The notes below the pieces were generated by a model, which saw only the letters and a list, made by a program, of their open reading frames with translations, had not been told where the DNA came from and made no database searches. A program made the position numbers and the translations under genes. Positions 1 through 20,446 of a stretch of 64,000 nucleotides of DNA are shown here, piece after piece. This DNA comes from Petrosia ficiformis (lineage: Eukaryota > Porifera > Demospongiae > Haplosclerida > Petrosiidae). How positions within the stretch are numbered: the stretch's first letter is position 1; each line of letters begins with the position of its first letter. The stretch lies in NCBI GenBank assembly GCA_947044365.1, contig OX345643.1, positions 124,001 through 188,000 of the forward strand, written 5' to 3'.

Positions 1-68
1 ATAGTATACAATCTTTAGGGTATTCAATACCATACAGTGCAGTATTTACACACCAAACAGTCTCTTCT

Positions 69-3041
69 ATGGTGGAATACATCACCCAACATGGAAAGCC
101 CATTACTAATATCAATAAATGCAGACCTGTTGCAATGAATGCACAGATAGGTCCTCTGAGTTATCAGCAACATGGAATTTGGATGAGCCAGACACTTCAT
201 CCTTCCAGTACAGCACACAATGTAGAGCTAGCATACATCTCAACTCAACCTCTGTCTATTGAAAGACTCAGAGAGTGTGTCTATCATATCATTTCACAAC
301 ATGAAGCTCTCAGAACTGTGTTTCCCATAACTGCACGAGGTGAGCCACAACAACATGTCTTGGATTGGGATTCTCCTGAGCTACAAGCATGGCTGCCAGA
401 GTTGGTTTCAGTTAAAGATAGTTCATCACTGGGTTGGAGCAATGGAGAGGTGATTCTACCTCATGTAGTATTTAATATGAAGGAGGGTCCCTTATTTCGG
501 ATCACTGTATACAGTAACATCACTATACCTCATCTATCTGGTAGTGTGATCCTATCAGTGCAGATCCATCATCTCATCACTGATGGATGGTCAATGAAAA
601 CGATGCTTGAACAATTGGAGAGTATGTATGTTAACGGAGTATCTTCATCATCTCCAAACACAAAGGCGGTGTCATTGCTAAGTTATGCTCTACACCAACG
701 TGACTCGAAGACACAGGAAGGTTTATATAAAGATAAGCTCTCATACTGGAGAAACAAGTTAAGTGGAATGTCACGACGTTCCTCTATTCCACATGATAAA
801 ATTAGACCTCCCATTCCATCAAATGCTGCTGGAAGCATACGAAGACGATTTGATGTCCCTTTACTTACTCTTTCACAGTTTTGTTTCAAGCATCAAGTAA
901 CAGAGTTCATGGTACTTCTTGCCACTCTTAAAGTTACACTTAATCTTTTAGGGGCATCCAATGATATAAATGTGGCTGTGGCAGAAGCTAATCGATATGA
1001 TGATAATACCAGTAACACACTAGGTGTGTTTGTTGTTATGCTAATAATGCGATCAGATTTATCTAGAATGACTGGGTTTTCCTCTTTTCTCTCTCGTGTA
1101 CGACAGACTGTTCTGGATGCTTTTGATAACTCCCTACCAATGGAATATCTTGAAGAACAGCTAAATCCACGTCTTGATCCATACACTCATTCATTTTATC
1201 AGGTAATGATGGTGTTCCAACGAGAAGAGGAACAGCCTTTCACATCCTCATCTTTGTTTAGTGTTCTTCCTGTCCAAGGATCTGGATATGAGTGTGATCT
1301 TGATATTTATGTGGCACAAAGTTCATTAGCGCACAACAGATTATCTGTTGAAATAAGATATCCTTCTGAGATATATTATACTTCTACTATTCATAACTTT
1401 GTGGAATCTTGGAACACAGTGTTGCACAGAGTAGTTACAAATACTAATTTATATGTTCCTTCTATTCTTGGTATGGGTCCTGTGAGAAGTACTCCTCTAC
1501 CACTTCCTATTGTCCCAAATGATGTATCAAGGGATGGTATTGCCATAGCGACCTTTAACAAGAATGTTACATGGAGTATGATATCATCAATATCTCAAGG
1601 CATACAAGAGTTAATGAAGACACATAGTATAACCGAATGGGGAATTATCAGTGTTCAGTTGGATAGTGTGGCTATGTCAGCTGCAGTGGGAATGGCATGT
1701 ATATTGTGTGGTATGGGGGTTATATTTCCAGAATATTCCACTATTACAACAGATATATCTCTTAGTATAGTGGAGTACACGCAACCAGATTCTCCTTTTA
1801 ATGCTATAAGCATTACTCAGCTTCTGGAAACACAGGGCAGATGTGAACCAGTGCCGTTAAGAGGTAAACTTCATGGTGTTATTTACGACTCATCAATACA
1901 ATGGATGAGCCAGTATGACATAGCAACAGTTGGTGAATTCATCCACAAGTATGTAAATGGTAAGAGTAATGAAACAGTCCATGTATTGGCTACATCGCTC
2001 AATTCTTCTCAATTTTCGCTGGTCCTTGCACTACTGATCAATCACATTACAGTCCATCTTCACATCACACTGAACACAATCACACATAGCAATATCTCTT
2101 TGCTTCTTCTACCGACTGACTCTATTTATTCTGCTATTACACTTATTAATACTGTACAACCACAGATACTATGGTTTCATGGCTTTCCTTCTGGTTTGCG
2201 ATACATCATTGAAAATATTAAAGCAAGAACATATATTTCACATAGCATTCTTTCTTCTCATTACGTTGTTACACATCATTATGCAGTGTCAAATGTCAAA
2301 GATATTGTCAATGAAACCACCAGATATTTACCACTTGGTAATATATCATCCTACATTACCTGGAAGCTAATAAATATGGATGGGAACCCAACAATGAAAG
2401 GTGGTTTGGGAAGTTTAGTATTTACGTCTGAAGGTTTAGAAATTTGTTCGCGATATCTTGTGAGACATAATGATTCAGTTGGATTTGAACTGGTTTCAAT
2501 GAACTTTAGTTCTGAAAATGATGACAATACTTTAACATTCACTGCATTATGTAAACATCCTGATATTGTGTGGTCAGCATTGGAACCAGACCTTTTATTA
2601 TACACTACCACTTCAGAACTATTCCCACCTCACACGTTGAAAAAGTATCTTTTGAAATACGTACCTACACATCTGATACCTTCAAACATCCAACAAGTGA
2701 ATCCAATATCGTCACTTGTGACACATGACCAAACTATGCCTTCTTCTATTAGTGATACAACATCCTCTATACACTGTCCAATATATAATATTGTAATAAA
2801 TACAGTACAGGAGTTATTAGGACTAAGAGAGATTGAACAATGGAAGAGTTTTCACTCTCTTGGGGGACACTCGTTGTTAGCGATGCAACTGGCCATGTTG
2901 CTGAGTCAGCATTTATCGTTACAAGTAGATATTAGATTGGTATTTGAATCAAAGTCCATTTATCATTTGATAAAGACAATACACATTCTCTTTCATCAAA
3001 ACCCAGCTACAAATGATAAACTAACATGCAACTGTACATAA
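69..3041 (+). CDS. NRPS-like protein: condensation, degenerate adenylation and carrier domains
   Basis: One uninterrupted 990-residue frame. Residues about 30-450 read as a condensation domain: a C1-like LSYQQHGIWM, the catalytic HHLITDG at 167-173 (second His 168, Asp172), and a later GVFVVMLIMRSDL. Residues about 470-890 sit where an adenylation domain belongs and keep its tail (KHPDIVWSAL, then LKKYLLKYVPTHLIPS). No P-loop-like TSGTTGxPKG or other ATP-binding core is visible, so adenylation is probably lost. Residues about 905-975 are a peptidyl-carrier domain with LGGHSLLAMQL, whose Ser935 would carry phosphopantetheine. There is no thioesterase. The family condenses carrier-bound acyl or aminoacyl groups; the substrate here is unknown. 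Unlike most neighbours it has no introns, which fits horizontal transfer or retroposition, but several other genes here are also intronless. The start is the first in-frame Met; Met at 138 is an alternative. Confidence 0.85.
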   Translation: MVEYITQHGKPITNINKCRPVAMNAQIGPLSYQQHGIWMSQTLHPSSTAHNVELAYISTQPLSIERLRECVYHIISQHEALRTVFPITARGEPQQHVLDWDSPELQAWLPELVSVKDSSSLGWSNGEVILPHVVFNMKEGPLFRITVYSNITIPHLSGSVILSVQIHHLITDGWSMKTMLEQLESMYVNGVSSSSPNTKAVSLLSYALHQRDSKTQEGLYKDKLSYWRNKLSGMSRRSSIPHDKIRPPIPSNAAGSIRRRFDVPLLTLSQFCFKHQVTEFMVLLATLKVTLNLLGASNDINVAVAEANRYDDNTSNTLGVFVVMLIMRSDLSRMTGFSSFLSRVRQTVLDAFDNSLPMEYLEEQLNPRLDPYTHSFYQVMMVFQREEEQPFTSSSLFSVLPVQGSGYECDLDIYVAQSSLAHNRLSVEIRYPSEIYYTSTIHNFVESWNTVLHRVVTNTNLYVPSILGMGPVRSTPLPLPIVPNDVSRDGIAIATFNKNVTWSMISSISQGIQELMKTHSITEWGIISVQLDSVAMSAAVGMACILCGMGVIFPEYSTITTDISLSIVEYTQPDSPFNAISITQLLETQGRCEPVPLRGKLHGVIYDSSIQWMSQYDIATVGEFIHKYVNGKSNETVHVLATSLNSSQFSLVLALLINHITVHLHITLNTITHSNISLLLLPTDSIYSAITLINTVQPQILWFHGFPSGLRYIIENIKARTYISHSILSSHYVVTHHYAVSNVKDIVNETTRYLPLGNISSYITWKLINMDGNPTMKGGLGSLVFTSEGLEICSRYLVRHNDSVGFELVSMNFSSENDDNTLTFTALCKHPDIVWSALEPDLLLYTTTSELFPPHTLKKYLLKYVPTHLIPSNIQQVNPISSLVTHDQTMPSSISDTTSSIHCPIYNIVINTVQELLGLREIEQWKSFHSLGGHSLLAMQLAMLLSQHLSLQVDIRLVFESKSIYHLIKTIHILFHQNPATNDKLTCNCT

Positions 3042-3147: not shown

Positions 3148-5012
3148 TTAATTGTAGTACATTGATATTCTCATTATGTCAGATACAGGATTGTTACGAC
3201 TTCTATTTTTATACTTGTAGCTAACAATTGAGAAGAGTAACAGTCCTACTATACTAATTAATGCATATCCCATGTAATACCAAAATACTATGTCTGATTT
3301 TATAGCACTTGGATCTACTGAAGAACACTCTAATTGTGGATTAATCTTGAAGATTATAACTCCAGCTATTGTTGTAAACATACCATACAATAAATAGTGA
3401 AACCCAATGAGAAGTCCTTTCATATTGTCAGGACTTTGAGCATAAATGAATTCTAATACTAGAAACACAAGAATAGTATATATCATAATTATAAAGAATA
3501 TAAATATCAGGATATTCTAACCTGGTACAAAAACAAGAGACTCTCCAATCACTACAACAGCGGATGGTATAAACAGCAATGAGACCCGAATTGATTCACT
3601 AGAACTAGGATTTAGTTCTAATATAGCAGCTATCAGAGATCCCAGTAGACCAATAGCTAGACCAACCCCAATTCTCTTGCGTGTGTTAGGATGGTAATGT
3701 CCTAACAATGGAAATATAAGATTACTCCAAACTGGTAATAGAAAGAGAAGCAATGTAGAATCATATAGTACATATAAAGATTGCTGTATGAATATCACTA
3801 CACTATTTCTTGCATCATCCTCTCCTGTGGGATTTGAAATACATCCTTGTAACTGTAGCGTCACCATATTCCAAACCTAAATATTTGAAAATTAAGAGTA
3901 ATATTATATTTGAATGGAATACTTACTCCAACATATGTAGCAGAATATCCACTGATCATGATGATTACTAATATAATACGTACAAACGTTCTCACATCCC
4001 CTACTTGTTCATCTGTATATTTTCCATCATGGTATTGACGAGCATATTCAAGTCCTGATGGAGGATCTTCCCCATACCTAAATGCACTAAGAAATGGTTG
4101 TTTGGGTCGTGAAGTTAAAGCATTATAAAATACTCCACAGATCTGGCTTAGTGGATTTTTGTTCACTCGTTCATGATCAAACATGTATCGAATTTTCTTG
4201 TGTAGCAATATAACTACTGTTATTATCACTGCTGATATGAAGGGTACAAGACAAGGTATAACACTCTTAATTACTGGATAATAGATTGATAATCCAAGTA
4301 GAGCAGCTAGACTTGTATCAACAAGAATTCCTATTACAACACCTAGATTCTTTGTCCAATACCACCAGTAAATGTATGAACCAGTTTCTTCACTCGGTGC
4401 ATTTATTAACTGGTCTGCACCAAATGTCAGCCAATTAACTTGAAATATACCATCACTTGCTACAATGACTATTAGAGTCAGAAGAGAGATCACGTTCTCA
4501 AATGTGAATTTAACAACTTCTTCAGAAACATTGTCTGCAATAGAAAGACTAAAAGATAATACACAATAAGATATCCAGGAGATGAATAAACACACAACTG
4601 AGATAAAGTGTCGACCAAGATATACATCACCAATTATCCCTCCAATAGGATAAAACAATGCGGGTATTCCTGCTTGAACAGCTAATACTACAAGCGTTGC
4701 ATGTTGGCTTGCTCCTAATACATCAGTAATCGTCTTTTGAATTACAATGGAGTAAGCAATACTCTGTAATGCATTTATTAATAAAATGTAAGCAACAGCT
4801 TTAGATTTGGGAATTCTTCTCCAAAAGTTGTTTACAAAATGTCTCCTCTTTGCTGACAAAGATATGTATCTGCTAGTAGCAGCAGAATTGTCTAGCTCAT
4901 ACGTAGAATTGGTGCTACCTAAAGTGGTTGTAGTGTTAGATAACAGGACTTGATCCTCTTCATTTTCATCAATGAATATTTCAGATATTCCTCTACTGAT
5001 ACTTGAGGACAT
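3148..5012 (-). CDS. SLC15 (POT/PTR) proton-coupled oligopeptide transporter
   Basis: Three exons join in frame: 5012-3927, 3876-3522 and 3458-3148, giving 583 residues. The introns are 50 and 63 nt with GTAAGT and GTTAGA donors on the minus strand. The protein is a multi-spanning MFS carrier. The PTR2-like signature GGIIGDVYLGR is in the first half, NLGVVIGIL follows, and EFIYAQSPDNMKGLL near the end is a POT hallmark. The family imports di- and tripeptides, and in PHT members histidine, with protons. An acidic N-terminal tail precedes the first membrane segment, as in lysosomal PHT1/SLC15A4, but subfamily assignment is inference. An in-frame ATG lies 20 codons upstream (5072). I chose 5012 because the upstream stretch comes from a tandem AT-poor repeat (GTGTGAGAGCCACACCTAT). 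The gene is head-to-head with the cysteine-protease relative, 73 bp away. Confidence 0.9.
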
Positions 5013-5085
5013 CTTCAAAGATGAGCTGTGCTGCACTGGTGTGTGAGAGCCACACCTATGTGAGAGCCACACCTATTGTCACGAG

Positions 5086-6185
5086 ATGTTGCATTCATTG
5101 GTACTAGTTTTGTTCTTCTCTCTCACTTTTGCTCATACTGGAGTAGAATATTCTGATTTTCTAAAATGGTCTGTAGCAAATAATATCTATGAAGAAGACT
5201 TGGTGCAGTATTATCCAGTTTGGAGGGAGAATGTTGAGTATATAATGAAACATAATTCTAAAGATACAGGATACACTCTTGAGATCAATAAATTTGCACA
5301 TTTAGTAAGTTAATTTACTAATATTAATAATTATTACTTACACTATCTATCTATCTGTCAGACACCAGATAAACTACCAAAGTTTGGGACATTTCGTGCT
5401 GCTAGCTCACTCAACAAGCCACTAAATCACTACTTTGATCCTCCACCTGAGGTAGATTGGCGTTCAAAAGGAGTAGTGACTTCTGTTCGTAATCAAGGAA
5501 ATACCGGATGTTCTGTAGAAATTTTTTTTGCTGATGTTGTTAGCAGTTTTCATGCAGTTGAAACTGGTCACTTAGTGGAATACAGTGTACAGCAATTGAT
5601 TGATTGTTGCACCAAAGATTGTAATTGTGAAGATACGTTACTGGAACCAGGTCGTCTTGCTTACTGTATCAAGAAACATGGAGGATTATGTTCAGACTAT
5701 CCTGATCACTCAAATACGTCTGAGTGTGAATGTCTTAAGTGTAAGGGTGATAAGTTTGTTATTCAGGGTGTTCGTGAAGTCCATTCTGGTAATGAGACCG
5801 CTTTAGAATATGCAGTTGCTATGCAACCAGTTATGGCAGGAATTGATGCTGGTCAAAAATCATTTCAGGTAATTCATAACTATATACGTATTATTTGTTA
5901 TTACTATCATAACAGCTCTATCATGAGGGAGTGTACAGTGATCCTTTGTGTTCCAATACTACATTAGATCATGTCCTACTTGTAGTTGGATATGGAAAAT
6001 ATCAAGATCAAGATTTCTGGCTTTGCAAGAATAGCTGGGGTAAGTAATTATAATTATGTATTATGTGTTACTGTAACTATATACATCATTTAGGATCTAA
6101 TTGGGGCATGAATGGATACATTATGGTTGCTCGTAACCATGACAACACATGTGGAATAGCAACAGCTGCTTATTATCCATATTGA
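5086..6185 (+). CDS. papain-family (C1A, cathepsin L-like) protein with Ser at the catalytic Cys position
   Basis: Exons 5086-5304, 5362-5868, 5916-6039 and 6094-6185 give 313 residues. Residues 1-17 are a signal peptide. About 20-75 are an I29-type inhibitory propeptide (EINKFAHL). The mature fold starts near PPEVDWRSKGVVTSVRNQG. Gap-free alignment to cathepsin L (same spacing between NQG and TGxL) puts Ser124 at the nucleophile Cys position; the local sequence is NQGNTGCSVEIFF. The Trp after the nucleophile is Val, and the disulfide Cys22 equivalent is Thr. The oxyanion Gln118, His261 (LDHVLLVVGYG) and Asn281 (WLCKNSWG) are intact. Sponge silicateins carry the same Cys-to-Ser change, but they keep more of the surrounding motif, so this may be a silicatein relative or an inactive protease homologue. 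A shifted Cys123 adjacent to Ser124 could in principle act instead. Confidence 0.88.
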
Positions 6186-17877: not shown

Positions 17878-20297
17878 TCATGAAACAAGATGTGTGTTCC
17901 ATCCATGAAAACATCGGGTAAATTCCCAGGGTTCTTGACCTCGTTTAGATATCTTGAGTTTCCTTTTCACTCCATTTTCAATATCAACCAAGTGTTTAAT
18001 ATATACCTATATAATTAGTCAACTATCTATTCCTATAAGATAATAATATTCATTACTTGAGCACTTTTCATGGCTAATTTCTTTTCAATTTCACTACATC
18101 TCGATCCAAACCATACAAATACCTGTTATGATGTAATCATTATATGTATCTATGTATAAATAGATATACCTCTTTCCCTGTATCCAGTAACATGACATCA
18201 TCTTCCGACATATCACCCTATTAGTTAAATAATTAAATAAAAAATTATTAATTAGAGGGGCATGTGATATATTACCTGACAGAAATCAGGAGTCTTCTCA
18301 GATACACTGAAATAACCTTTCTCGTTAGAACACCTGAATAAACGTCTACACAGCATATACTCTGCAGTCTATGTATGTATGTATGTATGTATGTATGTAT
18401 GTATGTATGTATGTATGTATGTATGTATGTATGTATGTATGTATGTATGTATGTATGTATGTATGTATGTATGTATGTATGTATGTATGTATGTATGTAT
18501 GTATGTATGTATGTATGTATGTATGTATGTATGTATGTATGTATGTATGTATGTATGTATGTATGTATGTATGTATGTATGTATGTATGTATGTATGTAT
18601 GTATGTATGTATGTATGTATGTATGTATGTATGTATGTATGTATGTATGTATGTATGTATGTATGTATGTATGTATGTATGTATGTATGTATGTATGTAT
18701 GTATGTATGTATGTATGTATGTATGTATGTATGTATGTATGTATGTATGTATGTATGTATGTATGTATGTATGTATGTATGTATGTATGTATGTATGTAT
18801 GTATGTATGTATGTATGTATGTATGTATGTATGTATGTATGTATGTATGTATGTATGTATGTATGTATGTATGTATGTATGTATGTATGTATGTATGTAT
18901 GTATGTATGTATGTATGTATGTATGTATGTATGTATGTATGTATGTATGTATGTATGTATGTATGTATGTATGTATGTATGTATGTATGTATGTATGTAT
19001 GTATGTATGTATGTATGTATGTATGTATGTATGTATGTATGTATGTATGTATGTATGTATGTATGTATGTATGTATGTATGTATGTATGTATGTATGTAT
19101 GTATGTATGTATGTATGTATGTATGTATGTATGTATGTATGTATGTATGTATGTATGTATGTATGTATGTATGTATGTATGTATGTATGTATGTATGTAT
19201 GTATGTATGTATGTATGTATGTATGTATGTATGTATGTATGTATGTATGTATGTATGTATGTATGTATGTATGTATGTATGTATGTATGTATGTATGTAT
19301 GTATGTATGTATGTATGTATGTATGTATGTATGTATGTATGTATGTATGTATGTATGTATGTATGTATGTATGTATGTATGTATGTATGTATGTATGTAT
19401 GTATGTATGTATGTATGTATGTATGTATGTATGTATGTATGTATGTATGTATGTATGTATGTATGTATGTATGTATGTATGTATGTATGTATGTATGTAT
19501 GTATGTATGTATGTATGTATGTATGTATGTATGTATGTATGTATGTATGTATGTATGTATGTATGTATGTATGTATGTATGTATGTATGTATGTATGTAT
19601 GTATGTATGTATGTATGTATGTATGTATGTATGTATGTATGTATGTATGTATGTATGTATGTATGTATGTATGTATGTATGTATGTATGTATGTATGTAT
19701 GTATGTATGTATGTATGTATGTATGTATGTATGTATGTATGTATGTATGTATGTATGTATGTATGTATGTATGTATGTATGTATGTATGTATGTATGTAT
19801 GTATGTATGTATGTATGTATGTATGTATGTATGTATGTATGTATGTATGTATGTATGTATGTATGTATGTATGTATGTATGTATGTATGTATGTATGTAT
19901 GTATGTATGTATGTATGTATGTATGTATGTATGTATGTATGTATGTATGTATGTATGTATGTATGTATGTATGTATGTATGTATGTATGTATGTATGTAT
20001 GTATGTATGTATGTATGTATGTATGTATGTATGTATGTATGTATGTATGTATGTATGTATGTATGTATGTATGTATGTATGTATGTATGTATGTATGTAT
20101 GTATGTATGTATGTATGTATGTATGTATGTATGTATGTATGTATGTATGTATGTATGTATGTATGTATGTATGTATGTATGTATGTATGTATGTATGTAT
20201 GTATGTATGTATGTATGTATGTATGTATGTATGTATGTATGTATGTATGTATGTATGTATGTATGTATGTATGTATGTATGTATGTATGTATGTATG

Positions 20298-20328
<31 letters not shown>

Positions 20329-20446
20329 TACTTACAGTTTCATACTCGGTTCTTCCTCCTAATGCCACCCAAAAGAAATTCTCAGGTTCTGCCCCTTCTT
20401 GTACAACCACATTAGAATAACTAGACTAGTAATTGAAATAAGAATA

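Follow-up and report, generated by a model that had tools for sequence, protein, structure and literature searches.

Sponge peptides are usually attributed to symbiotic bacteria, and the locus examined here raises the question of whether a sponge holds, in its own chromosome, a nonribosomal peptide synthetase (NRPS) gene that is under selection, and what an adenylation domain without catalytic motifs would be doing in it. The locus lies at the left edge of a 64,000-nucleotide stretch from Petrosia ficiformis (the window; G000:C8:124001-188000 in a 191-Mb assembly of 29 contigs), where the list of open reading frames gives a 1012-codon frame with its stop at 3039-3041; random sequence with the window's base composition would yield a frame of this length with a probability of about 8e-35. 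It runs off the left edge, its first residues being the tail of a preceding carrier domain, and a genome search recovered the complete gene as a single exon of 1580 codons (G000:C8:122299-127041), starting 1702 bases upstream of the window edge. The window gene is the 3' portion of a longer, intron-free, bacterial-style NRPS gene; it sits on an animal chromosome, and its second adenylation domain lacks the catalytic motifs, is not decaying and is under purifying selection. The original prediction, made from the window, had placed the start at position 69, which is internal to the frame, while its description of the gene as intronless extends to the entire coding region. A database search returned a 1580-residue protein, P0001, whose final 1012 residues show two differences from the window frame; over the full length the genomic gene product differs from it at 4 of 1580 residues.

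The encoded domains, adenylation (A), carrier (T) and condensation (C), follow the order A1-T1-C-A2*-T2, A2* being the degenerate adenylation domain, and no thioesterase is present. The parts relevant to the window are as follows.

3..3041, plus strand: 3' part of the NRPS gene (1012 codons and stop, of 1580); the leading 568 codons, which encode A1 and the larger share of T1, precede the window (G000:C8:122299-124002)
3..89, plus strand: C-terminal tail of carrier T1, its serine outside the window (Pfam PP-binding, residues 533-595 of P0001; GGQSL at residue 557)
144..1454, plus strand: condensation domain C (PF00668, E 3.3e-61; P0001 residues 616-1052)
567..587, plus strand: condensation active-site motif HHLITDG, by motif reading
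1476..2768, plus strand: A2*, degenerate adenylation domain, with approximate boundaries (profile comparison, predicted fold, motif alignment and the ratio of nonsynonymous to synonymous substitution rates, dN/dS)
2781..2993, plus strand: carrier domain T2 (PF00550, E 2.3e-11)
2871..2873, plus strand: phosphopantetheine-site serine of T2 (GGHSL), residue 1525 of the full protein
3027..3035, plus strand: C-terminal C-x-C, in three of four family rows (P0001, P0133 and P0162)

Pfam analysis of P0001 identified AMP-binding at residues 14-364, PP-binding twice and the Condensation domain; AMP-binding_C scored under the cut-off, and residues ~1060-1490 had no Pfam match. Read by eye, A1 carries FTSGSTGRPK, NLYGSSE, FKTGDL, GRTDNQIKVRG and SSGKIN, so that a functional-looking A domain with A3-A10 motifs is encoded outside the window, which A2* is not. 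The phosphopantetheine serine is present in both carriers (GGQSLL in T1, GGHSLL in T2), and the HHxxxDG condensation motif occurs in all four family rows. The intact condensation motif and the carrier serine (Ser935) of the original prediction were thereby confirmed, the latter being the serine of T2. Its stand-alone C-A*-peptidyl carrier protein, on the other hand, arose from truncation at the window edge and was discarded once the whole protein and gene were recovered; the supposed dependence on a separate loading enzyme is unsupported because an intact-looking A1 and T1 are on the same chain.

Relatives of the gene were found both within this genome and in the database. A second copy is located at C8:1487282-1490160 (L033:3283-6161); in G000 its C domain is missing, with frame changes at the junction, and the PF00668 genome search finds no C there. 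The database protein P0002 is 97-98% identical to this second copy and retains the C domain, a difference that possibly reflects a deletion polymorphism; both stop before T2. This identity to a copy in the same genome led us to reject P0002 as an orthologue, and it is therefore not independent cross-species evidence. In A1, the more distant P0133 and P0162 show 46-50% identity with both copies and with each other. P0001 and P0133 have T2 domains of 54% identity, while P0162 lacks T1 between A1 and C and has a single PP-binding stretch.

No AMP-binding domain was detected by Pfam between C and T2, even at E values up to 1. Profile comparison by hhalign, which took 100 of 246 A domains, aligned A2* to A domains across 389 columns, N-terminal half included. 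The A3, A4, A5, A7, A8 and A10 motifs, among them the P-loop-like A3 and the A10 lysine, are absent from A2* in this one profile alignment, in which motif places are uncertain at gapped positions. The predicted structure likewise has the A-domain fold: a first model, for which the four family rows were used, had a poor mean pLDDT of 51.3, and a second, built with 18 further database C-A-T proteins, reached a mean pLDDT of 72.7. As the added rows may bias the second model toward the A fold, the poor model was also put through Foldseek, and every one of the 50 matches listed was again an A domain, an NRPS module or a related adenylating enzyme. The dead A domain that had been proposed from the window thus holds, the A3, A5 and A8 motifs named at the time as evidence to the contrary having been sought in A2* and found absent.

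That A2* is retained by selection is indicated by comparison of the window gene with the second copy, in which dN/dS was 0.21 for A1 (0.15-0.27, 511 codons), 0.23 for A2* (0.17-0.32, 359 codons) and 0.35 for T1 and linker (0.17-0.63, 79 codons), ratios that are rough because dS between the copies is near 1 and that cover these three regions, C and T2 being missing from the second copy. A2* also aligns over 391-416 residues, at 24-28% identity, in P0133 and P0162. Positions identical in three lineages number 4 of 141 at residues 1060-1200, 16 of 100 at 1201-1300 and 35 of 190 at 1301-1490, compared with 177 of 499 in A1; the N-terminal half of A2* therefore drifts while the C-terminal part is held. 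The original view that only a C-terminal scaffold is kept goes too far, since the N-terminal half, too, aligns to A domains.

The substrate pocket of A1, located by motif anchors and numbered by GrsA positions, reads VDWSVSLAD in the window gene and in P0133, VDWSVGIAD in P0002 and VDWTASLGD in P0162. V-D occupies the first two pocket places in 58 of 294 cores from 247 proteins, most commonly as VDWVVSLAD (15) and in five cases as VDWVISLAD, although these counts are biased, the family itself having served as the query that gathered the pool. VDWVISLADK is, we presume, a beta-alanine code, and A1 has the V-D-type pocket that would go with a beta-alanine-activating A domain on that assumption. 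A tree of four family rows, 51 of 54 other V-D rows (three with incomplete ends were dropped) and 25 of 197 other A domains grouped the four family A1 rows together (100), on a long branch of their own (0.77 changes per column). On one side of a branch with Shimodaira-Hasegawa-like approximate likelihood ratio support of 99 stood 23 of the 25 other A domains, on the other the family and the V-D rows; the two exceptions are I-D-W and G-D-W variants.

With respect to the origin of the gene, ribosomal protein L3 (E 1.5e-30) and an amino-acid transporter are encoded upstream, while POT-like exons, a papain-family piece, an LRRK2-type ankyrin piece, tectonin, an HtrA-like protease, a cupin and a SPRY-SOCS-box protein are found downstream; two of the ten downstream frames scanned were assigned no family. 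The window has a GC content of 0.33, and the surroundings of the gene one of 0.37. Because the neighbours, including the SOCS-box and L3 genes, are animal genes, a symbiont contig is excluded, in keeping with the animal-chromosome placement first proposed; the host is probably a sponge, which would agree with these observations. Among the matches listed (the best 120 of 177 and 120 of 3928), the named records of the closest non-family relatives are nearly all bacterial, with one from Mortierella alpina. In the C-domain tree (79 rows, 60 different) the four members group together (100) and no donor was identified. We infer that the gene derives from a bacterial-type NRPS, transferred horizontally before its family diverged.

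On balance, we lean towards a two-module NRPS in an animal chromosome in which A1 activates a beta-amino acid, C performs a condensation and A2* is a selected, non-catalytic platform. A1 would activate a beta-amino acid, most likely beta-alanine, and load it onto T1; C would join this residue to an acceptor, either free or carried on T2, which might be charged in cis by A1 or in trans; and A2*, no longer using ATP, would provide C and T2 with a structural platform. The product would be a beta-alanyl dipeptide or amide, and in the absence of a release domain its release would fall to the acceptor or to another enzyme. Whether T2 carries an amino acid is the main doubt, as one-carrier members exist: with no T1 in P0162 and no T2 in the second copy, condensation between two carriers is not family-wide. 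Other observations also weigh against this reading. Divergence in the distant members is faster for A2* than for A1 (24-28% versus 46-50% identity), our literature search found no printed VDWVISLADK code and no occurrence of VDWV in the papers listed, and the genome search, which can miss split genes, gave no match to a phosphopantetheinyl transferase.

The one-carrier members are what lends some credit to an Ebony-like scheme, in which A1 charges one carrier and a free amine receives the residue straight from C, with no catalytic part for A2* or the second carrier; one carrier seems sufficient in those members, and among animal enzymes both Ebony and a flatworm NRPS are known to make beta-alanyl amides (PMC11214079). 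We regard this scheme as doubtful, given that the window gene retains two carriers with intact serines, that T2 is conserved between P0001 and P0133, that C is a normal PF00668 domain and that the second copy is itself damaged in G000. Charging of T2 in trans by another adenylating enzyme, the protein being one station of a longer pathway, appears unlikely: other NRPS frames do exist in the genome, including a C-A-T-thioesterase frame on C16, and trans complementation of a dead A domain has a precedent (PMC8949500), but the gene is not clustered with those frames (C8 versus C1 and C16), A1 of the same chain could load T2 and no partner was identified. A dying NRPS copy, or symbiont DNA in the assembly, would fit the predominantly bacterial relatives and the loss of the C domain from the second copy, and is nevertheless highly improbable. 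The 1580-codon frame is unbroken and dN/dS (0.21-0.23) shows no relaxation, on which ground a pseudogene was ruled out for the window gene; contamination was ruled out by the neighbours (L3 upstream; SPRY-SOCS-box, tectonin and cupin genes downstream), on a 7.09-Mb contig with a GC content of 0.37 around the gene.

Several known systems share features with the favoured two-module enzyme. In the ferrichrome synthetases Sib1 of S. pombe and Fso1 of O. olearius, PMC2644324 describes an A domain without several core motifs that is retained in the protein, and the first A domain of Sib1 is proposed there to load in cis for the degenerate module; the platform role that we propose for A2* would parallel that put forward for degenerate A domains in Sib1. 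These enzymes are, however, fungal, larger and directed at other substrates, whereas the window gene has two modules, is animal and has a beta-amino-acid-type A1. Ebony, a flatworm beta-alanyl-tryptamine NRPS and ACSF4-U26 are animal enzymes that activate beta-alanine (PMC10531068 and PMC11214079), a substrate that A1 of the window gene would most likely share. According to PMC10531068, neither Ebony nor ACSF4-U26 employs the condensation domains surveyed in that work, and the window gene differs from them in its regular PF00668 domain, second A domain and second carrier. Albicidin-type assembly lines also contain a non-functional A domain but are bacterial and rely on a stand-alone A-T protein acting in trans (PMC8949500). 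Bacterial NRPSs with V-D-type A domains share the A1 pocket pattern, and the family alignment matched 26 loci in 24-odd bacterial genera at 25-35% identity; they differ in host and in the separate long branch of the family A1.

NRPS genes on animal chromosomes are represented by those of PMC10531068 and by nemamide NRPS-1, which belong to other phyla. PMC10531068 screened 1059 animal genomes; its Results name 13 phyla, sponges not among them, and the words sponge and Porifera are absent from its main text. For sponges, PMC10542158 gives one and two antiSMASH clusters in two Amphimedon queenslandica assemblies, their origin unsettled, and PMC12833800 describes sponge alkaloid gene bundles; among the papers listed by our literature search, none was found on the gene family described here. 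If true, the presence of an NRPS family under selection in the animal's own chromosome would show the host to be capable of nonribosomal products, and a dead yet conserved A domain constitutes a natural test of A-domain roles beyond adenylation. As a tentative extension, an early animal lineage may, independently of Ebony, have turned a bacterial NRPS into its own enzyme for beta-alanyl conjugation, the second A domain becoming a selected non-catalytic part (platform, gate or acceptor-binding site).

Further NRPS and polyketide synthase (PKS) frames were found in the same genome, where PF00668 occurs at eight places: one in the window gene, three in each of two C1 frames and one in a C16 frame.

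G000:C1:11534138-11548195 and 11478395-11495854 (L034, L035, L037, L038), minus strand: two adjacent frames of one exon each, 4686 and 5820 codons long, on a 63-Mb contig
G000:C16:157943-163234 (L040:444-5735): frame of 1764 codons in one exon, encoding C, A, T and thioesterase domains, on a 5.4-Mb contig
G000:C9:6568239-6570548 (L041:2740-5049), minus strand: 770-codon frame with ketosynthase and carrier domains

The C1 frames contain ketosynthase, C, methyltransferase, A, T, further C-A-T and a terminal acyltransferase, and are apparent giant PKS-NRPS genes in an animal genome. Open frames are sparse on either side of them, as would be expected of an animal chromosome; spliced animal genes beside them were not identified. 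The authors of PMC10764717 report that, mitochondrial type II fatty acid synthase enzymes apart, they found no ketosynthase-containing proteins encoded in sponge genomes.

Within the window, the gene is followed directly by convergent exons.

3148-5072, minus strand: POT-family peptide-transporter-like exons, each under the Pfam cut-off

In the papain-family piece (5314-5967, plus strand) the usual QGxCGSCW reads QGNTGCSVE by eye, and with its active-site stretch so altered the piece is perhaps catalytically dead. Lastly, the segment at 18272-20425, with a GC skew of 0.715 (18001-20000) and long open frames in all six frames, is probably a tandem repeat.
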